Positions 27,659-42,785 of a stretch of DNA of 42,785 nucleotides are shown here, piece by piece. The stretch spans positions 1 to 42,785 of the forward strand of contig JABWAU010000019.1 in assembly GCA_013360875.1 (NCBI GenBank). The letters run 5' to 3'. Numbering within the stretch: the stretch's first letter is position 1; each line of letters opens with the position of its first letter. The notes beneath the pieces were generated by a model. It had not been told where the DNA came from and ran no database searches. It worked only from the letters and a program-made list of their open reading frames with translations. The position numbers and the translations under genes were made by a program. The DNA comes from Anaerolineales bacterium (lineage in GTDB: Bacteria > Chloroflexota > Anaerolineae > Anaerolineales > Villigracilaceae).

Positions 27659-30262
27659 ATGCTGAATCTGATCATTTTCATATCGCCGGTCCTGCTGCTC
27701 ATCATCATCGGCATCCTCATCCGTGCGCGCGGAAATTCCGAGACCGCCGGGCGGCGGTACTTCCTTTTCCTGGCTTGGACCGCCATCGGAGCGCTGGCAT
27801 TGATCCTCCTCAATTGGATCTTCCCTCGTTCCATCTTTGGTTTTGGACTGGCATTGTTTCCCGTGATCCCCGGGCTGGTCGTATTGACCCTCCTGCACTG
27901 GCGCGAATGGACCTCCCTGAGCCGACGGACAAGGAATCCGATTTTGTTTGCAGCGGGTTTCCTGTCCGTGACGATCTTCGTACAACTACTGCGCGTCATC
28001 CTGAAAGGCGACTCTTATCAACGCGAATCGCTCTTTTTTGGGATGGCACTGCTTGCCGTCTCGATGTTCCTGCTCATCGCCTGGATTTGGGGGAAGCATT
28101 CTCCGTTCCTGCTTTTCTTTATAAATGTTCTTTATCTGACATTCTTTCTGGCATTCGATCTGGGGGCGTTAACCATGTTCACCGAAACCGCGCCTGGGCA
28201 GATGCATCTGCATGTCTTGAGTATCCTGGCATACCTGGCAATCCCGGGCATGACCATCCCGGTCATGGCGATGTTGACCGCAGGCATGCTGATCTCATCT
28301 TCCACAACCGACGAAGTCACACCGGTTGCATGGAGTTCGATCCTTGGGCGGTTGACGCTCGTCATCATTTTGTTCGGATTGCTTTTATATGTATATCGTT
28401 GGCTTTGGTTGTGGGATGAAATGGAAGACGGCCTCCGCTGGATCTTCATGATAATGGTTTCGGGTGTTGCGTCGCTCTCCGCCGGGATGGTGATCGCATT
28501 GACCACAACAGGTATCCGCCGCTGGGCCGGGTTGATCTTTGCCATCGCAGTGATGGGTCCCATTTATCTGGCAGCCATGACCAATAGCGGCACGTGGAGC
28601 GGGATCACGAACTATACGATCACCGAGGAACGCGCCGCACGCATCCAAAGCGCCATCGAGAGTCATCATGCCCAAACGGGCTGGTATCCCTTGAGCCTCG
28701 ACGAATTGGTTCCGGGCGAACTGTGGCGGGTTCCGCTTCCCATGATCATGCCGGGACAGGGCTGGTGTTATCAGGGCGGTTCGAATTATTACCGCCTTGG
28801 CGCGGTCTATCGTGAGCATTGGAGTTCGCCGTATTTTGAAGTGCGCGTATATGCCTCCGCAGGGGATGTGCCGGAGGGAAACTGGGAGTGTGACGAGAAA
28901 CTCGCTGAAGTGATGTCGCAGAGCAGTTTCTACGGACCTCCTCCCACGCCTGTACCGTTTCCCGCCAGCGAGGTTTCGGTCCCGCGCGTGATCGTCGAGC
29001 CGATCCTTCAGGCGCGATCATTTTCAGTTGGAAATTGGTCGCCGGATGGGAAACTCCTCGTCTTCGGGTTGACCGAATATTTCATGACGGATGGGATCGA
29101 ACACTTGACGATCAATCTGCGTTTCCTCGACGTGAACAGCGGGGAGATCTGCCAGCCCAGCCAAAGTAAATGGACGGTGCGACAATCGAACGGTCTGCGC
29201 GACCATTCCGCCTGGCTGCCGGACGGGCGCTTCCTCTTCGTGACCGAGGCTGGTGCAATGACCCTGTTCCGTCCCTGCGCTGACAGCGTGGAGGAGCTGG
29301 CGGATCGGTATCCTGTCGCGTTCACGCATGTGATGTCATCCGACGAGGGAGGCGGGCACATCCTGCTGAAGAATGAAGAGGCGTATTGGTTGATGGACGG
29401 GATCAGCCTCGAGGTGAGAAAGATCGAGGGCGTCCCAACAGAGTCGTATCGTCCGTGGTATGACTGGTCGCCGGGCGGTGAGCGTCTCGCGCTGTCCCTG
29501 ATGAGCGGACCGCAGGTCGAGGATGAGGCGTTCCTGTATATCGTGGATTGGGCGAGCGCGGGGGTGGAGGAGGTCATCCCGCTCGAAGGCGCTTCGGACG
29601 CGAACCTGCCCATCGTCGAGTGGCTGACGCGTGACGAACTGTTGTTGCATGGGGGCAGGTTGACCGTGTTGGATTTCGGTTCGGACCCGCCCGCTGTGAC
29701 CGATGTCCTGCGCGATATTTTCCTCCTGGATATCGTCTACCCGTTCGATATTTCAGGCATGGATTCTGTCCGCTCGATTGATGGCGAGGGATATTACATC
29801 GGGGTACAGGTCAGCCATCCGCGCAATACGGATGCGTACGTGTATTCATCCGAAACGAGACAGGTCGAAGTCTTCCATCACGATGTCAGTACACTGCTCT
29901 TCTTCGATGCCGGTCAATGGATGCGTTTGTTGAAATGGGATGACCCGCCCGCATATCGCGATGAATACGAACTGGTCTGGATGGATAAGCCGAATGAGAA
30001 AACGAGGTTGGACGTGGAAGGTCACGTGCCGCGCGCGAACTTTCAGATGATTCCCAGATATTTACCCGGCACATCCCAACTTGTTTTCCATTCCTCGCAG
30101 GGCATTTCGATTGTCTCGATACCCGAGGGTAAAACAGTCGGCTTCTGGGAACTGTCGAGTCATGCGGAATATTTCGACGTGTTCCCCTCGCCCAATGGCG
30201 AGGCGCTGATCGTTGCTTCGGACAGAGATGGATTGTATTACATTCCTCTTTCATCAAAATGA
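27659..30262 (+). CDS. Multi-TM / pseudopilin-like / beta-propeller protein, paralogue 1
   Basis: An 867-residue protein of unknown function. Residues 1 to about 310 contain eight or nine TM helices. Residues about 320-430 form a short stretch resembling the C-terminal half of GspG pseudopilins (RIQSAIESHHAQTGWYPLSLDELVP, then GWCYQGGSNYYRL). From about 440 the protein is a WD40/TolB-like propeller with repeated W-S/L-P-D-G motifs (NWSPDGKLLVFG, AWLPDGRFLFV, DWSPGGERLALS, PSPNGEALIV). It aligns along its whole length with the next gene. GAGG lies before the ATG, 15 bases after the preceding stop. A membrane-embedded sensor is a plausible role (inference). Confidence 0.82.
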   Translation: MLNLIIFISPVLLLIIIGILIRARGNSETAGRRYFLFLAWTAIGALALILLNWIFPRSIFGFGLALFPVIPGLVVLTLLHWREWTSLSRRTRNPILFAAGFLSVTIFVQLLRVILKGDSYQRESLFFGMALLAVSMFLLIAWIWGKHSPFLLFFINVLYLTFFLAFDLGALTMFTETAPGQMHLHVLSILAYLAIPGMTIPVMAMLTAGMLISSSTTDEVTPVAWSSILGRLTLVIILFGLLLYVYRWLWLWDEMEDGLRWIFMIMVSGVASLSAGMVIALTTTGIRRWAGLIFAIAVMGPIYLAAMTNSGTWSGITNYTITEERAARIQSAIESHHAQTGWYPLSLDELVPGELWRVPLPMIMPGQGWCYQGGSNYYRLGAVYREHWSSPYFEVRVYASAGDVPEGNWECDEKLAEVMSQSSFYGPPPTPVPFPASEVSVPRVIVEPILQARSFSVGNWSPDGKLLVFGLTEYFMTDGIEHLTINLRFLDVNSGEICQPSQSKWTVRQSNGLRDHSAWLPDGRFLFVTEAGAMTLFRPCADSVEELADRYPVAFTHVMSSDEGGGHILLKNEEAYWLMDGISLEVRKIEGVPTESYRPWYDWSPGGERLALSLMSGPQVEDEAFLYIVDWASAGVEEVIPLEGASDANLPIVEWLTRDELLLHGGRLTVLDFGSDPPAVTDVLRDIFLLDIVYPFDISGMDSVRSIDGEGYYIGVQVSHPRNTDAYVYSSETRQVEVFHHDVSTLLFFDAGQWMRLLKWDDPPAYRDEYELVWMDKPNEKTRLDVEGHVPRANFQMIPRYLPGTSQLVFHSSQGISIVSIPEGKTVGFWELSSHAEYFDVFPSPNGEALIVASDRDGLYYIPLSSK

Positions 30263-30286: not shown

Positions 30287-32848
30287 ATGACGACAATGCT
30301 CTTGAACCAGTTGGGAATCATCCCCGCCATATTGATCACACTGACGGGGCTCCTGATCCTGCGCGGCGAGGACAAGGAAAGGAACACTCCCCGCTTTTTG
30401 CTGTTTTTGCTGGGGGTGATGGTGTTGTTTCAACTGGCTCTTCTCATCATAAGACGTTTTTTCACCGAGCCGTATAACCAGCCGATATTTCAAGCGACCT
30501 GGCTGCTGGCTCCATCCATCCTGGGGATTCTGGCGCTCATTCTGCTGAATGCGAGGACAGCCTGGAGAAATATGAACCGCAGAACCAGGGCAGCGACCGG
30601 TCTGCTGGCGCTGGTGACGGCAGCCCTGTCCGCGTTGAACTGGAATCCTCAATGGGGGTTGGAATTCTTGATCCTGCCTGGAGCGTTGATCCTGTCGATC
30701 GGGTGGGCATTGGGAAGGCGGCATCCGCGGCTGGCAGTCATCTTGAGTTTGTTTTCCATCGCCATCCTCTTATACACACACTGGACAATGACCCACCCTC
30801 TTGATTACAACGACCCAAACGTTCGTGTGTTCGGCATGGTGCTCTACTTCCCTCTTTTCGTCATTCCCGGGCTTTCTGTGGTCATGTCGGCAGTGCTACT
30901 CACCGGCAGCCTGGCGCAGGATGATGAAAGCCCGAGCCGTTTTCATCGAACTGCAAGAATCGCATTTGGCGCAGGTCTGATTCTATATCTGGCATATATC
31001 ATCTATTTGGGCTCTGTGTGGGATCAGACCGATGATGGACTTTTTGGCTTATTTTTTACGCAACCCTCGGCAATTACAGCCATCGGCGCGGGCATGATCA
31101 TGATACTTATCCTGCGCGGCAAATCGCGCCTGGCTGGGATATTCTTCATGATCGTTGTGCCCATCCTGCTAAACCAATCCTTCGAGGCGGGCTGGCGGGT
31201 TTCCTACCATGAGATCACTGAGGGAAGGGCGGAACGTATCGCCAGCGCGCTAGATCAATTCCATGCGCGCGAAGGAAATTACCCCGAATCCCTGAACGAG
31301 TTGACCCCTCGCGATCTGCTGTTCATCCAACAGCCGGTGATACTGGCTGGTGAAGAATGGTGCTATGAAAGCGGCGGGAATTATTACCGGCTGGCGGCAT
31401 TCTACCGGGAATTCTTCAGCGCGCCGGTCTCCCTGCGCCTCTACGAATCTGCCGGCGAAGTTCCTTCCAGTCCCATGCCGTGCGAGGAACGATTGGCGGA
31501 AATGAAGGGAAAATACTATTCCCCGATGGAGGATCCGAACGCGATGCGTCCGCCCATCCCCACGCCTCTGCCGGAGATTGACGTGGAGATGCCGAGGACG
31601 GAGGTCCAACCGCTGCTCGATGGCGCGTCCGCCTTCGCTGGAAGTTGGTCGCCGGATGGATTGTATTTCGTCTTCGGGACGCAGGGCGCGAACACGACCA
31701 TCCATTTTCTGAACGGCAACACCGGCGTGATCTGCACGGCGGAGAGTCAATTCTCCCGTATGGATGGGTTGCGCGAACATTACGCCTGGCTGCCGGATGG
31801 ACGCATCCTGTTTATTGACACGGCTGGCGGGATGGTCGTGTTGACGCCGTGTAACTCAGAAGTCGAGCGATTGACGAATCGTTTCAATGTGACCTTTACT
31901 CAAATTGGGGCATACGCGCCGGAGAGCGGACGTCTCCTTTTACGGAGCGACAGCGCCTATTGGGTGCTGGACAGCCGCACATTGGAAGCGCGATTGATTC
32001 CCGAAGTCGCTCCCAACCCGTATGAGTTTCATTGGGACCGGTATGTATGGCTACCCGGCGGCGAACGACTGGTCATTGCCCGGCTGGACGGACGCCAGGG
32101 AAGCAATGCCGGTTCAACGCTTTATCTGATTGATGGGCACATCGGCGAAGTTCTAAAAAGCCATTTCATGGAAGGGGATTTCGGTCAAAGCGCGCCCTGG
32201 ATGGAGGCGATCAGCGATTCGGAAGTCCTCCTGTTCGCGCAGGGAGAATGGCTCATCATGGATTTCAGTGCGGATCAAGTTACGTTCACCAATGTGCTGG
32301 AGGACATCTTTGGCTTGGATATTAAATTCCCGGATGATGTATCCGCTTCCGGTTCACATCTGGAGGGCGATGGGAGCGGGTATTATCTCGCTGTCCGTCT
32401 CAATCATCCGCGCAACCAGGCGACGTACCTGTACTCCTCCCGGACCGGGCAGAGGTATGTCTACGATCACGAACATCACACCCTTTTGATCTTCCCCGAT
32501 GGCTATTTGATGGAAATGCCAAAACTGGAGACTACGTCAACCTACCGCGACGAATACAACATTGTGATGGTGAATAATCCTGAAACCGCGCAACCCCGGT
32601 TGACCCTGACCGGGCACACGCCCCGCGAATATCCCCATTTGAGTATCGAATACCTGCCGCACAGTTCCCGATTGGCTGTCGCTTCGGCGCACGGCGTTTC
32701 GCTGGTCTCCCTGCCGGATGGAGAAATGCTGGCATACTGGTCGCTGGTCGGCGATGGGTTTTCACCCTGGATCACCGCATCGCCGGACGGGTCCGCTTTG
32801 GTGGCGGTGAAGGAATTGGGAGGGTTGTATTACATTTCGTTGCGATAG
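30287..32848 (+). CDS. Multi-TM / pseudopilin-like / beta-propeller protein, paralogue 2
   Basis: An 853-residue tandem paralogue of the preceding gene with the same layout: eight or nine TM helices to about residue 305, the pseudopilin-like part (RIASALDQFHAREGNYPESLNELTP, then EWCYESGGNYYRLAAFYREF), and a propeller from about 440 (SWSPDGLYFVFG, AWLPDGRILFID, VWLPGGERLVIA, ASPDGSALVAV). The soluble part is more conserved between the two than the membrane part. AAGGAG gives a good ribosome site. It is the last gene of the PadR operon. The duplication suggests a heteromeric complex or diverging ligands. Confidence 0.82.
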   Translation: MTTMLLNQLGIIPAILITLTGLLILRGEDKERNTPRFLLFLLGVMVLFQLALLIIRRFFTEPYNQPIFQATWLLAPSILGILALILLNARTAWRNMNRRTRAATGLLALVTAALSALNWNPQWGLEFLILPGALILSIGWALGRRHPRLAVILSLFSIAILLYTHWTMTHPLDYNDPNVRVFGMVLYFPLFVIPGLSVVMSAVLLTGSLAQDDESPSRFHRTARIAFGAGLILYLAYIIYLGSVWDQTDDGLFGLFFTQPSAITAIGAGMIMILILRGKSRLAGIFFMIVVPILLNQSFEAGWRVSYHEITEGRAERIASALDQFHAREGNYPESLNELTPRDLLFIQQPVILAGEEWCYESGGNYYRLAAFYREFFSAPVSLRLYESAGEVPSSPMPCEERLAEMKGKYYSPMEDPNAMRPPIPTPLPEIDVEMPRTEVQPLLDGASAFAGSWSPDGLYFVFGTQGANTTIHFLNGNTGVICTAESQFSRMDGLREHYAWLPDGRILFIDTAGGMVVLTPCNSEVERLTNRFNVTFTQIGAYAPESGRLLLRSDSAYWVLDSRTLEARLIPEVAPNPYEFHWDRYVWLPGGERLVIARLDGRQGSNAGSTLYLIDGHIGEVLKSHFMEGDFGQSAPWMEAISDSEVLLFAQGEWLIMDFSADQVTFTNVLEDIFGLDIKFPDDVSASGSHLEGDGSGYYLAVRLNHPRNQATYLYSSRTGQRYVYDHEHHTLLIFPDGYLMEMPKLETTSTYRDEYNIVMVNNPETAQPRLTLTGHTPREYPHLSIEYLPHSSRLAVASAHGVSLVSLPDGEMLAYWSLVGDGFSPWITASPDGSALVAVKELGGLYYISLR

Positions 32849-32916: not shown

Positions 32917-33861
32917 CTAATGCTTGTAAAAATCCGAGGGGAAATCGGGGGGTTGGAGCCAGCTCAGCAATCCCTTGTTCCGAAGCAGGTGCGTGGCGGG
33001 TTTTTCGAACCAGACCAGCAGCAGGCTTGCGCTCAACCCAGCTGTCCCCATCCATTGCCAGGCGGTCAGCGTTTCGCCGAGGATCAGGTAACTGAACAAT
33101 ATGGCGACCAGAAGTTCCGCGAGACCGAGCAGGGCGGTCTGCATCCCGCCGATGTTCTTCACGCCGAGGAAGAGCATCAGGCGTGAGATGAACGTGACGG
33201 CGGTCAAACCCAAGATCGGCATCCAGGGCGCGTTACCTTGCGGAGGAGGCGGGCTGGCAATGAAATACGCAGGGATCACGATGGCGCTCATGGCAAGCAG
33301 GGTGTAAACGGTCACGGTGGGGGCTGGGACGTCGTATAACACGCGCTGGTTAACGGGAAGATGAAGGGCGTATAGTGCGGCGGAGATCAGCATGAACATC
33401 ACACCGGGCAGGTCTATGTTTCCGGTTTCCACTCTGGTCAGCAAAAAGGCGGAGCAACTCGCGATGACAATGCGGCAGAGGGTTAATTTCGAGGGGGGCT
33501 GTCCGTCGAGTTGAAGCCAGAACGCCACGAAGAACGGATACAGCACGTAGAGCATTTGCGCCACGTTTGCGTTCAACCGGTTCAAGCCGAGATAATAAAA
33601 AATGGAACCGATGCCGTTGAACGCGCCGGCCAGCAGGCATCCATACAGCCCGGCGGGATAGATGTACAGGAACTGCCGCTTGAAAAGGAGCATGATCAAA
33701 ACGAGCAGGGCCGCCGCCATCCCCGTGCGCAACGCAACCACCGCGTACGGGGAGAACTGCCCGGCTCCCATCGCGGCTTTGCCGAACACTGGCGCCAGTC
33801 CGATCAGCGACGCCGAAACCAGCGCGGCGAAAATTCCCTGGTTGCGTTTTTTCCTTGTCAA
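32917..33861 (-). CDS. EamA/DMT-superfamily transporter
   Basis: A 314-residue membrane protein with ten hydrophobic segments in two EamA halves (about residues 8-145 and 160-295), typical of drug/metabolite transporters that export amino acids or metabolites. Family motifs include GLAPVFGKAAM near the start, the AGAFNGIGSIFYYLGLNRLNANVAQMLY stretch and LAELLVAILFSYLILGETLTAWQWMG near the C-terminus. The substrate cannot be told. The start appears to be TTG at 33861; no in-frame ATG or GTG lies between it and the upstream stop. It lies downstream of the signalling operon, from which it is separated by a hairpin. Confidence 0.88.
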   Translation of the reverse strand: MTRKKRNQGIFAALVSASLIGLAPVFGKAAMGAGQFSPYAVVALRTGMAAALLVLIMLLFKRQFLYIYPAGLYGCLLAGAFNGIGSIFYYLGLNRLNANVAQMLYVLYPFFVAFWLQLDGQPPSKLTLCRIVIASCSAFLLTRVETGNIDLPGVMFMLISAALYALHLPVNQRVLYDVPAPTVTVYTLLAMSAIVIPAYFIASPPPPQGNAPWMPILGLTAVTFISRLMLFLGVKNIGGMQTALLGLAELLVAILFSYLILGETLTAWQWMGTAGLSASLLLVWFEKPATHLLRNKGLLSWLQPPDFPSDFYKH

Positions 33862-33938: not shown

Positions 33939-35615
33939 TCATTTTATCAATGAACGGACTTCCTCCAGGAACTCGTCGTTCAGAAAATCCCCCTTCAGCA
34001 TGAGCGATTGGATCTGTCCCTGAAGGCGGCTCTTCTCGTCCACGGTCAGTTCCTTGGCGGTGGCGACAATGACGGGGATGTTCGCCGTTTCGGGTTTGCT
34101 TCGTAATGCGTCCAGCACGGCGAAACCGTCCACTTCGGGCATCATCAGGTCGAGGATCACGATGTCGGGCAGTTCGCGGCTGATCAATTCGATGGCTTCG
34201 CGTCCGCTCGCGGCTTCGAAGATCTCGAAATCTCCCTGCGATTGTAAAATGCGTCGGATGAGACGACGCGCCTCGGAGGTGTCGTCAACCACAACCACGC
34301 GCGAGAAGCGGTTCGGGGTCACATTGTTCAGGGCAGAGAGGAGTCCCTCCTGCGGCGTTTCGACTCCCGCCTTCCTCTCTCGCAGGTCAATATCGCGCGT
34401 CCAGCCTTCGCCGAAGAGGAACTGTTCAGCCGGCAGGGTGTGTCCCGTGCAATTGACGACCACCACATCGTTCGGTTTGATGACCCCGGCGCGCACCAAT
34501 TTGAAGAGACCCGCGAAGGCCGTGGCGGAGGCTGGCTCCGCGGAGATGCCCTCCAGTTTTGCCAAAACGTGCATGGCGCGGAACGACTCTTCGTCCGATA
34601 CGCTTTCGAAGACGCCGCCGGTTTCGTTGACCTGCCTGCGAAGCATCATGTACGAACGCCCGGGGTCGCCGGTTGCCAGCGTTTCGATGCGCGTCTTCGG
34701 AGTAAGCACCGGCTCGGCTTTTTCGAGTCCTTTTCTCCAACTCGTCACCATCGGCGCGCATCCGTCCACCTGGATGGGCGCCATGGCGGGGATGCGGTCA
34801 ATCAGCCCGAGCGCCTTCAGTTCGCGGAAACCCTTGTACACGCCGAGCGGTCCCAGTCCGCCGCTGATGGATTGGACGTACCAATCGGGCGTGCGCCATT
34901 TGGGATGTTCCTCGGTGGAGCCGGGCGGCGCGCCGTTTTGCAGAGTCAATTGTTCGGCGATCTCGAACGCCAGCGTCTTCATGGCTTCGACGGCGGTGAC
35001 GGTCCGCGCGCCCATGTCCTGATACAGGCCGCGTTGACGCGCAAACTCCGCCGCCATGATCTTCGCCTCGTCGTAGGAGCCTGTGATCTTGACCACCTGA
35101 CTCCCGTACAAGGCGATCTCACGCATCTTGACCCCCGGAACGAGGCTGGTGACGAACGCCCAGAGTTTGATCCCCGCCCGGGCTGCGTATGCCGAGAGCG
35201 AAATAGCGACGTTGCCGGTGGATGCGGCGACCATTTCGGTGATGCCGCCCTCCTTGAGCGCGGCGATCGTCAGCGCCGCCTGCCGGTCCTTGAAGGAGGA
35301 GGTCGGTCCCTGCCTCTCGTCCTTGATGTACAGGTTGTTGAGTCCCAGCATCATGCCCAGGTTCACCGCCTTGATGAGGGGAGTGCCTCCCTCGCCGAGC
35401 CGTAAACTCGGGTTTGGGTGGTGAATGGGCAGGAGTTCGCGGTAACGCCACAGGTCGAACTCGCGGTTCTTGAGTTGCGAAGGAAATGTCTTCGCGACCT
35501 CCTCCATGTCGTATTCCGCTTCGCGCCACTGGCTGGAGCAGTTGGGGCATTGCATGGAACTGGGCGTGAACGGCGCGGCGTTGCCGCAATCGAGACATCG
35601 GATTACGAATGCCAT
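33939..35615 (-). CDS. Threonine-synthase-like PLP enzyme fused to a response-regulator receiver domain
   Basis: A 558-residue fusion. Residues 1-35 are a zinc ribbon (Cys7, Cys10, Cys23, Cys26) common in one branch of threonine synthases. Residues about 40-410 are the fold type II PLP domain: Lys109 in TSSFKDR forms the Schiff base, ASTGNVAISLSA holds the PLP phosphate, and NCTGHTLP is near the end. After a linker, residues 438-558 are a complete receiver: Asp444/Asp445, phospho-acceptor Asp489 (ILDLMMPEVDG), Thr519 and Lys541. The enzyme would make threonine from O-phosphohomoserine, or a related reaction. Lying 22 bases after a hybrid kinase gene, its activity may be phospho-controlled (inference). 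Confidence 0.9.
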   Translation of the reverse strand: MAFVIRCLDCGNAAPFTPSSMQCPNCSSQWREAEYDMEEVAKTFPSQLKNREFDLWRYRELLPIHHPNPSLRLGEGGTPLIKAVNLGMMLGLNNLYIKDERQGPTSSFKDRQAALTIAALKEGGITEMVAASTGNVAISLSAYAARAGIKLWAFVTSLVPGVKMREIALYGSQVVKITGSYDEAKIMAAEFARQRGLYQDMGARTVTAVEAMKTLAFEIAEQLTLQNGAPPGSTEEHPKWRTPDWYVQSISGGLGPLGVYKGFRELKALGLIDRIPAMAPIQVDGCAPMVTSWRKGLEKAEPVLTPKTRIETLATGDPGRSYMMLRRQVNETGGVFESVSDEESFRAMHVLAKLEGISAEPASATAFAGLFKLVRAGVIKPNDVVVVNCTGHTLPAEQFLFGEGWTRDIDLRERKAGVETPQEGLLSALNNVTPNRFSRVVVVDDTSEARRLIRRILQSQGDFEIFEAASGREAIELISRELPDIVILDLMMPEVDGFAVLDALRSKPETANIPVIVATAKELTVDEKSRLQGQIQSLMLKGDFLNDEFLEEVRSLIK

Positions 35616-35637: not shown

Positions 35638-38600
35638 TTATTGACCGCCGATGCGTTTGAGCGCGTTCTCGATGCTTTCGATCAGGTCGCTTTCGTCGAG
35701 GGAACCCTTGAAGATCAACCTTTGCCCGTATTCGGCAAGCTGCTTTTGCTGTTCGTTGGTCAAACCACCGCCGCTGACCACCAGGACGGGGATGTCCCGC
35801 AGGTCGCGGTCTTCGCGCAGTTTTTCCAGGATCGAAAAGCCGTCCATTTCGGGCATGAAGATATCGAGCAATATTGCGTCGGGCGGACTGGCGTTGATGT
35901 ATTCCCAGCCTTTGCGTCCCCCGTCGGCAAGGACGGTCCTGTATTTGCCGTGGTCCTTCAGGATCTTTTCGATGAGGCGCAGGTCGTTGGGGTCGTCGTC
36001 AATCACCATCACAGTGCGGATGTTCCCGTTCCTGTTCAGGCGTTCCAGCGCGTTGACGAGATCCTCCTCGATGATGGGTTTGACGAGGTAATCCGTCGCG
36101 CCGAGGTTGAATCCCTTGTCGGTCTGTTCGACGATGGAGCAGATGATGACGGGGGTGTCTCGGGTGGCAGGATCAGATTTGATGTCGGTGAGAACCGTCC
36201 ATCCGTCCACGTTGGGCATCATGATGTCGAGCGTCACGGCGAAGGGGTGAAGTTCCTTGATCCGTTCCTTAGCCCTCGAGGGTTCCGTGAGCGGAACGAC
36301 GTGATAGCCCTGCGGGTTGAGGTAACGTTCGTACAGGTTGATGACCTGCGGGTCGTCGTCAATGGCGAGGACGATCTTCCTGCCGGCGGGAATCTCCTCG
36401 ATGGGCTGGTGGAAGAGCGGCATCGTAAACCAGAAGGTGGAGCCTTTGCCCTCCTCGCTCGTGACGCCGATGCGCCCCCCGTGCAGTTGCACGAGATTCG
36501 CACAAATGGAAAGCCCCAAACCCGAACCGCCGGTCTTGCGCGTGGCGGAGCCGTCCACCTGTGAGAAAGCCTTGAAGAGTTTCTCCTGTCCCTCCAGCGA
36601 AATGCCGGGGCCGGTGTCCGTGACGTTGATAAGCGCTTCCAGCATTCCGTTGGGCGCTTTTTGGACGCGCGTCTCGACGGTGATCGAGCCCTCATCCGTG
36701 AACTTCGCCGCGTTGGAAATCAGATTAAGCAGCACCTGGCGCACGCGCATCGTGTCGCCGCGGATGGTGGGCATGTCCGGCGGAACCATCTCGACCAGTT
36801 GGATGGGTTTTTCCTTGACGAGTCCCTTGGCGGTGGAGAACACACTGTGGATCATCTCGGACAAGTGGACTTCCTCGAATTTGAGTTCCATCTTTCCGGC
36901 TTCGATGCGCGCCAGATCGAGGATGTCGTTGATCAAACCGAGCAGGTGTTGCCCCGAATTGTAGATGGCGGTCAGGTCCTGCTGCTGCATGTCGGTGATG
37001 GGTCCGTCAATGCCCTTCAGGATGACGCGCGAAAAACCGATGATGGAGTTCAATGGCGTACGCAGTTCGTGGCTCATGTTCGCCAGGAACTGGCTCTTGA
37101 GTTGGTCCACCTCCTTGAGGCTCGTGATGAGTTCCTGCGATTCGGCGAAGAGCGAGGCATTGTTGATGGCGACCGCGATCTGGTCCGCAAGCGATTGCAG
37201 CACGGAGACGACATCAGGGGTGAAGGCGTGTTCCTGCGTGGATTGGATGTCCAGCACGCCGAGGATCTTGCCGCCCACTTTCAAGGGAATGGCGACCTCG
37301 GATTGCGTATCGAGCAGGAGCGGATTGGGCTGGTGAAGCGGTTCGTGTCTTACGTCGTTGGCTAGCACGGTCTCCCCGCTTTCCGCCGCCTTTCCCACGA
37401 TGGTCTGCGAACCGACCAGGACCCTGTGTTTTTGAAGTTTCATGATCTCGCCCGCCCCGCCTGTGCCTTCGCGCAAAACGGCGTGGAAACCGTCCTCGTC
37501 CACTTGATAGATCGAAGCGGAGTAGAACCCCAGCCTGTCGCCGACCAGGTTGACAGCGCGGGTGAAGATCGTATTCAGGTCGAGCGTGGAGGTGACGAGT
37601 CGCCCGATCTCTGCGGAGGCGGCGAGATATGTGTTGCGCCGTTCCACAGCTTCCCTGGCTTGCAGGCGTTCGAGAGCGGCGGCGGTCTGCGCGACGATCA
37701 ATTCGAAATTTTCGGCGTGACCCTCCGTGATGCGTACGGACGTATCGTACGTCTGCACCGCCATGACGCCTCGGATTCCCCCCTCGCTTTTCAGCGGCAC
37801 CCCAAGCCAATCCACGCTGCGGACTCCGCTCGAGACGATCTCGCCTGCGGCTTCGAGATCGGCGAATATCTCCGGCGTGGCGCGTAACCGTTTGCCGGAG
37901 CGGATGACGTAGGAGGTCAGCCCTCTACCCAGTTTGCGCGGCGCCCAATCGGTGTCGAACTCATCGGCGTGATAGGGGAAGGTGATCAGGTTCGCCGCCC
38001 GGTCGTAGAATGCCACGTAGAAATTACGGGCGGGCAATACCTTCTGGATCACCGCATGAACGGTCTGGAACAGTTCCTCGACCGTGTTCGACGTGAGGGC
38101 GCTCTCGGAGATTTGCGTAATGGCGGCTTGCGTCAGTTCGTGCGCCTTTCGGTCGGTGATGTCGCGCGCCACCCAGAACACCTGGTCGCCGCTGAGTTTC
38201 GAAACGCTCGCGTCGAACCAGATGTCGTTCCCTTCGAGGTTGAGCAGGTATTCGGTCTTGACGATGGTGTCGCCGCGCAGCGCCTCGTGGATCACGTCCA
38301 TGAACTGCTTGTGCAGTTCGGGCGGAAGGATATCCCTTATGTTTTTTCCGACCATTTCGGCAGGCGGACGTATGAGCAGGGAGGGGTTCGTCGGCGCGAT
38401 GCGAACGTAATAGCCATCCTTGTCGTACACGATGATCACGTCGTTCATGGACGCGAACAGCGCGCGCAATTCCGATTCGGATCGTTGGGTTTCCTGGAAC
38501 AAACGCGCGTTTTCGAGCGCAAGCGTGAGTTGGTCGGTGACCTGCCGCACGAGCAGTTGATCCTCGTCGGTCCAAACCCGTTGGCTCGTTTCGTCCAGCG

Positions 38601-38850
38601 CCTGAAGCGTTACCCAGGTGTTTGGGGCGGTTTGGAATTCCAAAGCCAGGACGGTATCAGCCTGGGAGAGGGGTCTGGTCGGCTCGAGCGCGCGGGCGCG
38701 TCGGGGAGCGGCTTTCGTTTCGACCGCGCGGGCTCTTTCCTCCGGCGCGCGTTTTGGAACGCCCGCGGCCGGCGTCGCGCTCGGTTCCTCGTGTTTGATA
38801 TCGTCAAACAGTTTGTCAAGCCGTTTGGCGATTGGCTTCTTCTTTGGCAT
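35638..38850 (-). CDS. Hybrid histidine kinase (PAS-GAF-GAF-HisKA-HATPase-REC-REC)
   Basis: A 1070-residue cytoplasmic kinase with no TM helix. A Pro/Ala/Arg-rich head and a degenerate GAF end (to about residue 120) are followed by PAS (about 125-245), two GAF domains (about 245-405 and 410-570), HisKA with the phosphorylated His594 (ANMSHELRTPLNSI), the HATPase (LLNLISNAAKFTDEG, DTGPGIS, GSGLGLSI), and two receivers with Asp875 (TLDIMMPNVDGW) and Asp996 (LLDIFMPEMDGF). The two receivers give an internal relay; no Hpt domain is seen. The start overlaps the parA-like gene by 35 bases with GGAG upstream. The downstream PLP-receiver fusion is the obvious relay target. Confidence 0.93.
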   Translation of the reverse strand: MPKKKPIAKRLDKLFDDIKHEEPSATPAAGVPKRAPEERARAVETKAAPRRARALEPTRPLSQADTVLALEFQTAPNTWVTLQALDETSQRVWTDEDQLLVRQVTDQLTLALENARLFQETQRSESELRALFASMNDVIIVYDKDGYYVRIAPTNPSLLIRPPAEMVGKNIRDILPPELHKQFMDVIHEALRGDTIVKTEYLLNLEGNDIWFDASVSKLSGDQVFWVARDITDRKAHELTQAAITQISESALTSNTVEELFQTVHAVIQKVLPARNFYVAFYDRAANLITFPYHADEFDTDWAPRKLGRGLTSYVIRSGKRLRATPEIFADLEAAGEIVSSGVRSVDWLGVPLKSEGGIRGVMAVQTYDTSVRITEGHAENFELIVAQTAAALERLQAREAVERRNTYLAASAEIGRLVTSTLDLNTIFTRAVNLVGDRLGFYSASIYQVDEDGFHAVLREGTGGAGEIMKLQKHRVLVGSQTIVGKAAESGETVLANDVRHEPLHQPNPLLLDTQSEVAIPLKVGGKILGVLDIQSTQEHAFTPDVVSVLQSLADQIAVAINNASLFAESQELITSLKEVDQLKSQFLANMSHELRTPLNSIIGFSRVILKGIDGPITDMQQQDLTAIYNSGQHLLGLINDILDLARIEAGKMELKFEEVHLSEMIHSVFSTAKGLVKEKPIQLVEMVPPDMPTIRGDTMRVRQVLLNLISNAAKFTDEGSITVETRVQKAPNGMLEALINVTDTGPGISLEGQEKLFKAFSQVDGSATRKTGGSGLGLSICANLVQLHGGRIGVTSEEGKGSTFWFTMPLFHQPIEEIPAGRKIVLAIDDDPQVINLYERYLNPQGYHVVPLTEPSRAKERIKELHPFAVTLDIMMPNVDGWTVLTDIKSDPATRDTPVIICSIVEQTDKGFNLGATDYLVKPIIEEDLVNALERLNRNGNIRTVMVIDDDPNDLRLIEKILKDHGKYRTVLADGGRKGWEYINASPPDAILLDIFMPEMDGFSILEKLREDRDLRDIPVLVVSGGGLTNEQQKQLAEYGQRLIFKGSLDESDLIESIENALKRIGGQ

Positions 38851-39601
38851 ATTCGATCAACTCCTGGGCAAGGACGCGATACTGCTGCGAGCCGCGGCTG
38901 TTCGGTTTGTAAAATGTGATTGGCACTCCGGCGATGGGGCTTTCCCGCAATTTGGTGTCTATCTCGATGACAGTCGTGAACACGCCCTGCCCGAACGTGG
39001 CTTGCAATTGCTCGAAGATGTTGCGGTGCGTCCGATTGCGGCGGTCGAGCAGCGTGACGAGGATGCGGTAGGCGAGACCGGGGTTTACCTCCTGCCGGAT
39101 GCGGCGGATGGCGCCCATCATGTTCCTCAACGCGTAGGCGGAGAAGTATTCCGCCTGTGTGGGGATGATGAGCAGATCCGCCGCGGCGAGCGCGTTCAAG
39201 GTGATCGCCCCGAGAGCGGGAGGGCAATCGAGCAGGATATAGTCGTATGGAAGCGAATCAGCCTCGAGGGCGTCGCGAAGCGTGGTCAGGTAATGGGTTC
39301 GCATGGGCAGGAACTGTTCCGCGTTCTCGATGCGGAAACTGGAGGGAACGATGTTCAGGTTCGAGACCTCGGATTTGCGGATGGCGGTTTTGATTTCGGC
39401 GTTCTCGATCAATACGTTCGCGGATGAAACGCTCGCCTCCTCCGCTTCGAGACCGAGGGCAAGCGAAAGATTCGCCTGTGGGTCGAGGTCCACCAACAGC
39501 ACACGGTAATTCAATTCGGCGAGCGCGGCTCCCAACGATAACGTGGAGGTGGTCTTTGCCACGCCGCCTTTTTCATTCGACATCGCGATAATGTATGCCA
39601 C
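38816..39601 (-). CDS. ParA/Soj-like ATPase (orphan)
   Basis: A 261-residue deviant-Walker P-loop ATPase of the ParA family. The Walker A is KGGVAKTT with signature Lys11 and Lys16; VDLDPQANLS (A') and DYILLDCPPALG (Walker B) follow. Such proteins cycle on DNA or membrane to position plasmids, chromosomes, or cytoplasmic protein clusters. No parB or parS-like gene is nearby; it lies instead between two signalling genes, so positioning of a sensory cluster is more likely than chromosome segregation (inference). GTG start at 39601 with GGAGGT five bases upstream, one base after the preceding stop. Confidence 0.93.
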   Translation of the reverse strand: MAYIIAMSNEKGGVAKTTSTLSLGAALAELNYRVLLVDLDPQANLSLALGLEAEEASVSSANVLIENAEIKTAIRKSEVSNLNIVPSSFRIENAEQFLPMRTHYLTTLRDALEADSLPYDYILLDCPPALGAITLNALAAADLLIIPTQAEYFSAYALRNMMGAIRRIRQEVNPGLAYRILVTLLDRRNRTHRNIFEQLQATFGQGVFTTVIEIDTKLRESPIAGVPITFYKPNSRGSQQYRVLAQELIEYAKEEANRQTA

Positions 39602-39602
39602 G

Positions 39603-42125
39603 TTACACCTCCGATCCTTTGCCGTCGCTCTTGCGCGGGACGATCTCCACTCGGCTGGCGCCCAACGCGTCCCGCAGTTCGTTGAGGGCTGTTTCGATCA
39701 TGGCTTGCGGGTCGGTGTGACTCCTGATCTTGCCGGTGATCTCGGAGACGAGCCGCTCGCGTTCGGCGCGCAGGGTCGTTTCTTCGAACAGGCGCGCATT
39801 CTCCGCCGAGAACGCCACGCGTTCGGCGACCGCTCGGATGAGGTCCAATTGATCCTCGTTCCATTTGCCGCCCGCGCCCGGGGATTGGACGACCAGATTG
39901 CCGATGACCTCGCCGCGCAACTCGATCGGGACTACGACTGAACCTGATTCAGCGTCCCGCGCTTTTACCCTGCCTTTGCCCATCTCTGCCAGATTGACCG
40001 GTTCCTTCAGCGGGGAGGCGCCCATGGCGTTATAGCGGTAGCCCAGCAGTCTTTGTTGTTTGGGCAGGCGCTTCCACGCCTCCCGCGTGGACTGGCGCAT
40101 GACCATTTGCAATTCCGCCAGCGTGCGGTTCGAGTTGTCGAAGAGCCGCGCGTTCTCGATGGCAAGGCTTACCTGGTCGGCGAGGAGGCTGAGGGTTTGC
40201 GCGTCCTCATTCGTGAACGCGCCGGTTTCCCTGCTTTGCACGTCCAGCGCGCCAATGATGCGGTCTCCGCTTTTGAGAGGCAGAGCCATTTCGGAGTGCG
40301 TTTCGGGCAGGTCCGGGTTGTTGAAGAACACGGCATCCTTTCCCACATCGAGAGCGATGCGGGGTTCGCCGGTCGCGGCAACATTGCCCACGATACCCTC
40401 TTCTCCCACGCGCAGACGGTGTCCGCGCTCGAGCATTCTTTGTCCGCCTTCGCTGTTGGCGGCGGCAAGCACGGCGTATTCGTTCGCTTCGTCAAGCAGG
40501 AAAACGCCGACGTGATAGAAACCGTAGTTCTCGCTGATCATCGTCGTGACCTGCGGGAGAAGTTGCTGGAGGTCGCGAATGGATGTGATGGAGCGGGCGA
40601 CCTGGGCGAGCGCCTCGAATTGCGCGGCGCGCCGGCGGATCTGTTCGTTTGCGTTCTCCAATTCGAGGCTTCGCTGCTGCGCTTCCTTTGTTCGTTCGGC
40701 AACCCGCGATTCGAGGGTGTTGATCGCCCCCTTCAATTCCGAAGCCATCGAGTTCAGAGTGGCTGCAAGCCTGCCGAACTCGTTCTGTTCCGTTACCTCC
40801 GCGCGCGCGTCCAAGCTGCCTTTCGCCATCTCTTCCGCCGCGCGCGTCAGGGACGCCAGCGGCGCGAGCAGGTTGTTGGCGAAGTTGACGGTAATGATGG
40901 ACGTGAGAGCGAATATCCCCAGCACGACGAAAACGCTGATAGCCAGGGCGATGCTGTTTTCACGGTCGAGTTGTTGTTCCGCAGTCAGAGCGTCCGCAAG
41001 CATTTCCTGCGATGGCACGAGGATCGCGAGGCTGAAATTCACGCCCTCGACGGGGCGGTAGGCGATGAAGCGCTCCGTGCCGTTCACGTTGATCTGCGAG
41101 AAACCGGCGTTGCCGGAAACCATGTCGCGAAGGATGGCGCCAACTTCAGTCCCCTCGCTTCCCAGCGCGTCATCCGTCAGTTCGCTCCCCAGCGGGATCG
41201 TTTCGGGGTCAATTCCCAGGTCTGCGTAGCCCGAATCGGGCATGGCGATCAACCGCCTGTCCCGATCAATAAGGAAGGCGTAGCCGGTCTCGCCGACGCG
41301 GATATTTGCAATATTCTCCGATATCTTCGTCAGTTGGATATCCTGCGCGACGACGCCCAACAACCTGCCGGACGCGTCATAGACCGGGGCGCTGTTCGTG
41401 ATGACAATTCCGTTCAACGCCGCGTCCAGGTAGGGATCGGACCAGACCGCGTCCCTGTCCGGGTTCGAATCCGGGTTTGCCTTCACGTACCAGGGACGCC
41501 CGGTCACGTCGAAGTCTGCAGGGACGATGGCGGCAAGGTCAATGTTGGGGTAATACAGGGTTAGGCCGGTCGCGCCGCCGAAATAGATGGCAATGATGTC
41601 CGGGTTGGTCTCAAGGATGGAGGGAACGATGAGATCCATGTGGCGCAGGGAGTTCAGTTCGGAAATCATCTCGGTCGAAAGGTCGGATGCGGCGGGGATG
41701 AAGACGGAGCCAATCTCTGAATTCGAATTGTCCCAACTGCCCTTGTCGTTCCTGGCAAGCGAACCTTCCGCGTCCCAATAAATGCCTATTCCAAAGGAGG
41801 GTTGATCCGCAAGCAGGTTCTGGCTGTAGTCCCTGAGGGAAAGCGCGCCCGTTCTTAACGATCCGAAATAATTCGAGAGGGTCTCCGCCTGCCGATCTGC
41901 CGTGGAGTTGAGGATGTTCTCCGCCTCCTCGCGGGTGCTCGTCTCCAGTCGCTGCAAAAGATTGTCGTTCGTCTGCCTCGTCCGCACGTAGACGAACACG
42001 CCCATGATCGCAATCGCCAGGAACACGATGGCGATGCTTCCCGCCACCAGCCTGTTTCGGATCGGGAGCGAGCGCAGGGATGCGAATAATCGTTTCATGC
42101 CTGTTGTATCCGGTATGCTCGTCAT
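39603..42125 (-). CDS. dCache-HAMP-GAF sensor protein without a kinase domain
   Basis: An 840-residue membrane sensor. TM1 (about residues 20-42) is followed by a dCache domain outside the cell (about 45-380; YFGGATGLTLYYPNID, FDVTGRPWYVKA and GETGYAFLIDRDRRLIA are typical), TM2 (about 385-410), HAMP (about 415-470; ASLTRAAEEMAKGSLDARAEV), a coiled coil, one full GAF (about 510-665), a shortened GAF, and the start of a third that stops early. There is no kinase, cyclase or methyl-accepting part, so the output must pass to a partner, probably the hybrid kinase. The start is chosen as the ATG with GGAG ten bases upstream; a GTG at 42134 overlaps the previous stop. Confidence 0.88.
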   Translation of the reverse strand: MTSIPDTTGMKRLFASLRSLPIRNRLVAGSIAIVFLAIAIMGVFVYVRTRQTNDNLLQRLETSTREEAENILNSTADRQAETLSNYFGSLRTGALSLRDYSQNLLADQPSFGIGIYWDAEGSLARNDKGSWDNSNSEIGSVFIPAASDLSTEMISELNSLRHMDLIVPSILETNPDIIAIYFGGATGLTLYYPNIDLAAIVPADFDVTGRPWYVKANPDSNPDRDAVWSDPYLDAALNGIVITNSAPVYDASGRLLGVVAQDIQLTKISENIANIRVGETGYAFLIDRDRRLIAMPDSGYADLGIDPETIPLGSELTDDALGSEGTEVGAILRDMVSGNAGFSQINVNGTERFIAYRPVEGVNFSLAILVPSQEMLADALTAEQQLDRENSIALAISVFVVLGIFALTSIITVNFANNLLAPLASLTRAAEEMAKGSLDARAEVTEQNEFGRLAATLNSMASELKGAINTLESRVAERTKEAQQRSLELENANEQIRRRAAQFEALAQVARSITSIRDLQQLLPQVTTMISENYGFYHVGVFLLDEANEYAVLAAANSEGGQRMLERGHRLRVGEEGIVGNVAATGEPRIALDVGKDAVFFNNPDLPETHSEMALPLKSGDRIIGALDVQSRETGAFTNEDAQTLSLLADQVSLAIENARLFDNSNRTLAELQMVMRQSTREAWKRLPKQQRLLGYRYNAMGASPLKEPVNLAEMGKGRVKARDAESGSVVVPIELRGEVIGNLVVQSPGAGGKWNEDQLDLIRAVAERVAFSAENARLFEETTLRAERERLVSEITGKIRSHTDPQAMIETALNELRDALGASRVEIVPRKSDGKGSEV

Positions 42126-42130
42126 TTGAT

Positions 42131-42785
42131 TCACACTCCATCCGAACTTTCGAACTGGATGAGGACTTCGGAGCCCGGGAGGGCGCGTCCCAACTCTTCG
42201 ACTGCAGTCTGCAACACGTTACGCATGTTGATGGACGCGCCGATCTTCGCGGATACTTCTCCGATCTTTGCCTCTTTTGCGGCGCGTCGCTGCGACTCCA
42301 GCAGGAGGCGGGCATTATCGAGCGCAAGGGCAAGACGGTCCGAAACGGCTTGCGCCAGGTTGATCTCGTCCTGGTTCCATTTACGGTCTTTTGTGGGGGC
42401 TTTGATGTTGAGGACGCCGATGATCTGTCCGCGCAGTTTGACGGGGACGACGATGGTCGGTTGGGATTTGTTTTCCCTTCCATCCAGGACGATGACCTGA
42501 CCGCTGGCGAGTGCGCGGCGGATCTCGTCCGTTTCCGTCGGTTTGAGCAGTCGTTTGCCGCCGGTCGCGGTCTGGCGATAGCCGATGCGAGTTTCGCGGC
42601 TGGCGAACGTGCTCCATTCCCGCCGTTGGATCTGGGCGTACAACGCTTCGGCTTCTTCACGCGCCTGTTGCATTTGGTTGAAAAGGCGGGCATTTTCGAT
42701 GGCGGTGGCGACCTGTTCGGCGAGGATGCCTAGGAGGCTGGCGTCGCTTTCCGTAAACGCGCCCGGTTTGACGCTTTGCACATCT
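42131..42785 (-). CDS. GAF-domain sensor protein (5' end beyond the window)
   Basis: The last 217 residues or so of a protein that continues past the right edge. The first visible part (DVQSVKPGAFTESDASLLGILAEQ... ending in IENARLF) is the end of a GAF domain, followed by a shortened GAF (IVVPVKLRGQIIGVLNI, KWNQDEINLAQAVSDRLALALDNARLL) and the N-terminal helix of a further GAF (EVSAKIGASINMRNVLQTAVEELGRALPG) that stops after one strand. The same ending occurs in the next gene. The upstream domains are not visible; kinase or other output modules could lie there. It overlaps or abuts the following sensor gene. Confidence 0.85.
   Translation of the reverse strand, partial: DVQSVKPGAFTESDASLLGILAEQVATAIENARLFNQMQQAREEAEALYAQIQRREWSTFASRETRIGYRQTATGGKRLLKPTETDEIRRALASGQVIVLDGRENKSQPTIVVPVKLRGQIIGVLNIKAPTKDRKWNQDEINLAQAVSDRLALALDNARLLLESQRRAAKEAKIGEVSAKIGASINMRNVLQTAVEELGRALPGSEVLIQFESSDGV

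Follow-up and report, generated by a model that had tools for sequence, protein, structure and literature searches.

A threonine-synthase-like enzyme with its own receiver domain, encoded between a hybrid histidine kinase and an EamA transporter in Anaerolineae

Two-component systems usually alter transcription, motility or second messengers, and enzymes of the fold-type II pyridoxal phosphate (PLP) class, such as biosynthetic threonine deaminase (IlvA) and cystathionine beta-synthase, may combine the PLP domain with a C-terminal ligand-binding regulatory module, which in threonine deaminase is an ACT-type part at the C-terminus of that domain. Receivers attached to metabolic enzymes are a recognised kind of protein of limited taxonomic range, as stated in a passage of PMC5847659 (citing Galperin 2006, 2010). 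Here we describe a gene that joins these two themes, found in a stretch of 42,785 nucleotides (the window; contig JABWAU010000019.1 of assembly GCA_013360875.1, an Anaerolineales bacterium of the Chloroflexota), in which a threonine-synthase-like (ThrC-like) PLP domain is fused to a receiver and the fusion gene lies between those of a hybrid histidine kinase and an EamA-family transporter.

The fusion protein and its distribution

The fusion open reading frame (ORF) begins with ATG, contains no internal stop and encodes, from the N-terminus onwards, a zinc ribbon, a complete fold-type-II PLP domain, a linker and an intact receiver:

33939-35615, minus strand: ThrC-like PLP enzyme with C-terminal receiver, 558 residues (ORF, Pfam, conservation)
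35403-35615, minus strand: N-terminal zinc-ribbon region, residues 1-71, with C7, C10, C23 and C26 (cysteines kept in 134 of 134 fusions)
34446-35402, minus strand: PALP domain, residues 72-390, Schiff-base K109 at 35289-35291 (Pfam, conservation, AlphaFold2 match)
34299-34445, minus strand: linker, residues 391-439 (lower identity over 396-437, low model confidence over 393-424)
33996-34298, minus strand: receiver, Pfam residues 440-540, D489 at 34149-34151, K541 just outside (Pfam, conservation)

Both domains are recognised by Pfam, PALP (PF00291) at residues 72-390 with an E-value of 3.3e-63 and Response_reg (PF00072) at 440-540 with an E-value of 4.2e-19, over the cut-off. Residue conservation was followed through 134 fusion ORFs (125 distinct sequences), all of which retain the four zinc-ribbon cysteines, the PLP (Schiff-base) lysine K109 within SFKDR, and D445, the phospho-acceptor D489 and K541 of the receiver. 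Equally invariant are the STGN loop (S132-N135), which together with the PLP lysine is the pair of features expected of a threonine synthase, and E210, K213, Q248, S251, G252, G255, C286, T315, G316, P318, G319, E360, G391 and H392. Conservative exchange is seen at position 444 (D in 84, E in 50) and at position 519 (T in 107, S in 27), and K541-G542 replaces the usual Lys-Pro of receivers in every fusion. An earlier note on this DNA, made from the sequence alone, had described a full PLP domain with Lys109 and the zinc ribbon kept, joined to a complete receiver with the Asp pair, Asp489, Thr519 and Lys541, and the Pfam matches and residue statistics bear out both halves of that description. 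Its sequence suggests a PLP enzyme that is intact and whose substrate site has changed.

Mean identity to the window protein is lower over residues 396-437 (49%) than over either flanking part (70% for 1-395 and 67% for 438-558), and this stretch is therefore read as a linker. The earlier note had considered that an assembly error or a missed stop between residues 412 and 437 might have created the fusion; this explanation is excluded, since orthologues from 98% identity downwards read through the stretch without a stop and full-length, stop-free copies occur in 52 of 61 related genomes. An AlphaFold2 model built with 48 sequences has a mean predicted local distance difference test score (pLDDT) of 75, with low values at 393-424 and over about the last 40 residues. 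Threonine synthases are its top matches by Foldseek and VIA-align, the best VIA-align match being the Arabidopsis enzyme (Z 39.6, root-mean-square deviation 2.3, 370 aligned residues), followed by CapA2 of Alistipes (Z 35.6); the VIA-align rows cover model residues 4-391, that is, the PLP part.

The fusion was searched for in Chloroflexota genomes and, in addition, in one scan of named loci from which the best 80 were taken (L077-L156); the samples of related genomes, class and phylum overlap, and the named loci partly repeat the same genomes (e.g., L087 and G010), so that these sets are not independent. In the genus of the source genome (4.0 Mb in 208 contigs, 96.5% complete), all 18 sampled members carry a full-length fusion, as do 18 of 19 genomes from the rest of the family and 16 of 24 from the rest of the order, making up the 52 of 61 given above. 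Among genomes drawn from the class the full fusion is present in 97 of 298, a count that leaves out four with an incomplete match only (G162, G189, G108 and G314), and among those drawn from the phylum in 34 of 301, 7 of the 34 lying outside the class. The same domain order thus recurs elsewhere, which the earlier note had proposed to look for. Record titles of the 80 named loci point to Chloroflexi, Anaerolineae, Anaerolineales or their members, except L092, which is titled Blastopirellula marina and has a full-length fusion match; this record most likely represents a metagenome bin under a wrong name.

A tree built from 101 PLP domains separates 56 fusions from 45 stand-alone ThrC-like proteins of three kinds by a branch with 100/100 support, and no stand-alone row falls among the fusions. 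Since this tree is rooted at its midpoint and carries the program's warning about long branches meeting, we limit the claim to the split itself, without direction. A recent or repeated fusion is not favoured, the 56 fusions forming one side of that branch. Relatives with the PLP and receiver domains on separate genes, which the earlier note had named as evidence that would speak against a genuine fusion, were seen neither in the tree nor among the incomplete class matches inspected: those of G322, G162 and G108 end at a contig end, and those of G314 (G314:C200, L221) and G189 (G189:C91, L223) lie inside contigs with the remainder of the fusion in another reading frame and look like frame-broken copies or errors.

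Two main fusion types are distinguished, that of the window and a second at 46-49% identity; within the genus, 17 of the 18 genomes have the window's type and one (G003) has the second type only. Forms with two receivers also occur (L160, L162). A separate variant, L165:8138-13225, encodes 1695 residues, in which a PLP domain and two receivers follow about 1000 residues without a Pfam match.

The operon and its conservation

All genes of the operon lie on the minus strand, in the transcription order GAF protein (cut by the contig end), dCache-HAMP-GAF protein, ParA-like ATPase, hybrid kinase, fusion and EamA transporter; the fusion's neighbours are:

42131-42784, minus strand: further GAF protein, C-terminal part, 5' end open at the contig end (Pfam GAF)
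39603-42134, minus strand: dCache_1-HAMP-GAF protein, 843 residues (Pfam, motif, fold matches)
38816-39601, minus strand: ParA/MinD-like ATPase, 261 residues, overlapping the kinase ORF by 35 bases (Pfam AAA_31, E-value 9.7e-50)
35638-38850, minus strand: hybrid histidine kinase, 1070 residues, with PAS, GAF, HisKA, HATPase_c and two receivers (Pfam)
32917-33861, minus strand: EamA/DMT-family transporter, 314 residues (Pfam EamA, two stretches)

The kinase ORF ends 22 bases upstream of the fusion, exactly as the earlier note had it. With a receiver complete in its acidic pair, phospho-accepting Asp, Thr/Ser and Lys and a histidine kinase in the same operon, the fusion has the expected attributes of a response regulator; its receiver resembles those of the kinase, at 34% identity over 119 residues for the last one (which also has Lys-Gly) and 36% over 85 for the first.

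This arrangement is conserved across the 80 best named loci, less L092 and L155, for which the greedy ORF call gave no fusion ORF. In all 76 loci with more than 1 kb of upstream sequence the kinase is the immediate upstream neighbour, and of the 72 loci with as much sequence downstream 71 have EamA as the next gene, at median intergenic gaps of 18 bases (kinase-fusion) and 31 bases (fusion-EamA). Of the 60 loci for which more than 7 kb is available upstream, 52 have a ParA gene within 12 kb and 59 a GAF protein. Down to 51% identity, both kinase and EamA are adjacent in 24 of 25 callable window-type loci of the first fetched sets (L072 and L068 of these sets, as well as L166 of the wider class, are left out for want of a called fusion ORF). 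The transporter also follows the fusion type at the genome level: all 6 tested genomes with the window's type have an EamA orthologue, at 46% identity or more, and none was found in the 11 tested genomes that lack this type (9 without any fusion and 2 with the second type only), among which the best match reached 91 bits and 29% identity.

The second fusion type likewise comes after a kinase, in 12 of 12 fetched loci (L059-L070; L068 judged from coordinates), and has a different downstream setting, with single receivers often following; 8 of the 12 loci also have a stand-alone gene for a ThrC-like protein on that side. The one such gene that was scanned, from L059, is a PRK08197 protein (580 bits), with which those of L062 and L067 cluster. 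These neighbours link the family with amino-acid metabolism by evidence other than EamA.

We place the end of the operon at EamA because the next gene is mostly on the opposite strand (57 of 68 loci). In L038 it heads a convergent set (L038:12145-17663) made up of an OmpR-type regulator, a receiver-GAF-kinase and a GAF-kinase, and relatives of this regulator occupy the place after EamA in 49 of 68 named loci. The window has other genes past EamA, including two adjacent large paralogues on the plus strand (27659-30262 and 30287-32848; 867 and 853 residues, 35% identity over 806 positions), of which the protein of 30287-32848 has no Pfam match. The kinase itself grows through added GAF domains, up to 2939 residues; the protein of that length, at L054:2527-11346, has twelve GAF stretches and the same operon position.

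A candidate amino-acid receptor is encoded upstream of the ParA gene. The dCache_1AA motif, as given for PctA in a passage of PMC10104139, consists of Y121, R126, W128, Y129, Y144 and D173, and the operon's dCache protein has F208 (aromatic, Phe for the first Tyr), R213, W215, Y216, Y235 and D265 for it, together with D237. Among 21 hand-picked dCache rows R213, W215, D237 and D265 are invariant and Y235 is kept in 20, and in an unpicked set the full motif occurs in 23 of 30 rows. The best fold matches of its model (pLDDT 88) include Mlp37, PctA and CtaA, which are receptors for amino acids, and a Pfam scan found no kinase or methyl-accepting domain in the protein. A dCache protein was detected in 25 of the 80 named loci, 23 of the 25 having the full amino-acid motif.

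A proposed mechanism weighed against its alternatives

Whether the fusion makes threonine was judged against curated profiles and against the residues of canonical ThrC, represented by the 20 best-scoring loci of a ThrC profile search. The window protein stays below the cut-offs of TIGR00260 (148.8 vs. 167.1 bits), of PRK08197 threonine synthase, its best NCBIfam match (252.2 vs. 303 bits), and of cysteate synthase TIGR03844 (101.1 vs. 324.9 bits). T136, R208 and K395 are present in 20 of 20 canonical rows and in none of the 134 fusions, which have V, A or K at the first position, S, A, G, T or P at the second and P, S or A at the third; T136 and R208 align, in an alignment made with the window protein less its first 135 residues, with T88 and R160 of the Thermus enzyme, which touch the phosphate of its substrate. 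The GNAGNI of canonical ThrC, which we take to be part of the PLP-phosphate site, is SGGxGP in the fusions. The loss of T136 and R208 does not by itself rule out a threonine synthase, because all 21 C37-like stand-alone rows lack both as well, and the 4 PRK08197 rows lack T136; K395, in contrast, is kept in 45 of 45 stand-alone rows of all three kinds and lost in every fusion. Since the protein stays below the curated cut-offs and lacks these residues, invariant in canonical ThrC, we do not class the window protein as a threonine synthase.

Two further proteins of the ThrC family, both stand-alone and scoring above the TIGR00260 cut-off (C59 and C37), are encoded in the source genome, answering the question of the earlier note as to a second thrC; one of the genome's stand-alone ThrC proteins is a strong PRK08197 match (591 bits). 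With K395 lost throughout and these proteins at hand, a housekeeping threonine synthase role appears unlikely for the fusion. A canonical ThrC of the 300-bit kind was not found in the source genome by the profile search, which within the genus covered this genome and G007, and thrB scores above its cut-off in 10 of the 13 members of the genus that were searched, the exceptions being the source genome (G000), G004 and G006. In G007, thrB lies next to a ThrC of 300 bits (G007:C9:22166-24108); a DNA search with this region matched the flanks in the source genome, G004 and G006 and found the pair absent, and contig C152 of the source genome, holding the left flank, runs 1.4 kb further with no match to the pair. 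A dispersed repeat of about 105 bases is located near thrBC (L219, about 8300-8410), with many copies in the relative G014.

Pairing of an enzyme-receiver fusion with a hybrid kinase, both PLP site and receiver being intact, makes phosphorylation control the natural reading. In the mechanism that we propose, signals collected by the operon's GAF and dCache proteins would drive the hybrid kinase, which would phosphorylate D489 of the fused receiver; the receiver would in turn gate the PLP domain. The reaction of this domain would probably be an elimination or a replacement, with a small amino acid different from O-phosphohomoserine as substrate, and the product or substrate would leave the cell through the EamA transporter. 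Of the earlier note's suggestion that phosphorylation may switch the synthesis of threonine or a related amino acid, the control by phosphorylation is thus retained, and threonine as the product is not supported, given the cut-offs and lost residues. The complete chain is put forward tentatively, as quite possible in full, and its first step is much likelier than its last. If correct, it suggests direct control of a step of amino-acid chemistry, without a change in gene expression, in these bacteria.

Several observations weigh against this proposal. One first-type fusion (L051, at order level) lies outside the operon and is the exception among the 25 loci above, and among wider-class loci with a called fusion ORF the adjacent upstream kinase is present in 13 of 19 and missing in 6. 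For the transporter, phmmer gave no match to a PDB sequence, and since EamA proteins carry many compounds, amino-acid export by this one is guesswork. Of the 52 loci that include ParA and a further 2.6 kb or more upstream of it, only 22 show the dCache protein, and the remaining 30 have GAF proteins instead; amino-acid sensing by the predicted receptor may therefore be one input among several. On the enzyme side, some rows of the C37 kind pass the TIGR00260 cut-off despite lacking T136 and R208, and two second-type fusions that were scanned pass TIGR00260 (169.2 and 170.6 bits), both failing PRK08197. Phosphorylation, activity and substrate of the fusion are themselves predictions from sequence.

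The same second-type scores favour a true threonine synthase converting O-phosphohomoserine to threonine, with flux set by phosphorylation, as a second, regulated isoenzyme beside stand-alone ThrC. PRK08197 as the best NCBIfam match and threonine synthases as the best structural matches point the same way, and the combination of no thrB over the cut-off with no canonical ThrC makes an unusual threonine route possible in the source genome. Against this stand the exchange of K395 for P, S or A in all fusions, the SGGxGP motif, the two sub-threshold scores of the window protein, the two stand-alone ThrC proteins and, with the reservation made above for other stand-alone kinds, the loss of T136 and R208; we regard such an isoenzyme as unlikely, albeit a serious contender. 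The altered substrate site would also suit a PLP domain that has become a sensor, binding an amino acid as external aldimine and reporting it through the receiver or the kinase without net catalysis, a possibility that the earlier note had raised. Reuse of PLP enzymes as sensors is known from the MocR regulators, and sensory proteins surround the fusion in its operon. Invariance of the Schiff-base lysine and STGN loop in every fusion disfavours this possibility, as does that of the zinc ribbon, Q248, C286, T315, G316, P318, G319 and H392 down to about 45% overall identity, which exceeds the usual need of ligand binding alone; the co-occurring transporter, too, suits metabolism better, and we consider a sensor improbable.

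The uniform Lys-Gly of the receiver, its resemblance to the kinase's own receivers and the existence of two-receiver variants could also be explained by a structural or phosphate-sink module exerting no control over the enzyme, the fusion merely co-localising the enzyme with the kinase complex. This is the least probable of the explanations considered, as the phospho-acceptor residues are invariant and the receiver is conserved nearly as well as the enzyme. Beyond the phosphorylation-gated enzyme proposed here, one may envisage an amino-acid autoinducer circuit, in which the gated enzyme would make an amino-acid-like messenger that EamA exports and the dCache_1AA protein senses outside, feeding back on the kinase. 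We hold this extension to be speculative and quite improbable; if true, a response regulator would itself synthesise the signal.

Relation to known systems

Compared with ThrC as defined by TIGR00260 and PRK08197, the fusion has the same fold-type II PLP domain, the SFKDR lysine and the STGN loop, and its N-terminal zinc-ribbon cysteines are shared with the C37-like and PRK08197 stand-alone proteins. It differs from ThrC by its C-terminal receiver, its separate clade, the loss of K395, T136 and R208, and the scores of the window protein below the cut-offs. The dCache protein is likewise similar to PctA, CtaA and Mlp37 in motif residues and fold, and unlike them ends in HAMP-GAF. Among metabolic-enzyme response regulators, those of section 14 of PMC5847659, where no PLP fold is named, are the nearest in kind, and the fusion stands apart from the ones that section describes in that its receiver is C-terminal, it extends across a class, and it is accompanied by a transporter. 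No PLP-enzyme response regulator is described in the titles and opening lines of abstracts listed for receiver, kinase or response regulator together with threonine synthase, PLP or PALP, a coverage without most subscription papers and two Galperin reviews likely to include such fusions. The attachment of a receiver to a metabolic enzyme is thus a kind already known, and among the papers listed none turned up in which a PLP-fold output is combined with a conserved kinase and transporter.

The unit recurs across a Chloroflexota class with poorly understood signalling, and it offers a testable set consisting of kinase, enzyme and transporter, plus a predicted amino-acid receptor in part of the clade. 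Architectural parallels to the fusion are found in IlvA and cystathionine beta-synthase, which likewise append a C-terminal module to a fold-type II PLP domain, the difference being that the module of the fusion is a phosphorylatable receiver and not a binder of small ligands. Overall, the direct target of a phosphorelay appears to be a PLP enzyme, reached through a receiver located where related enzymes carry their ligand-binding regulatory domains.
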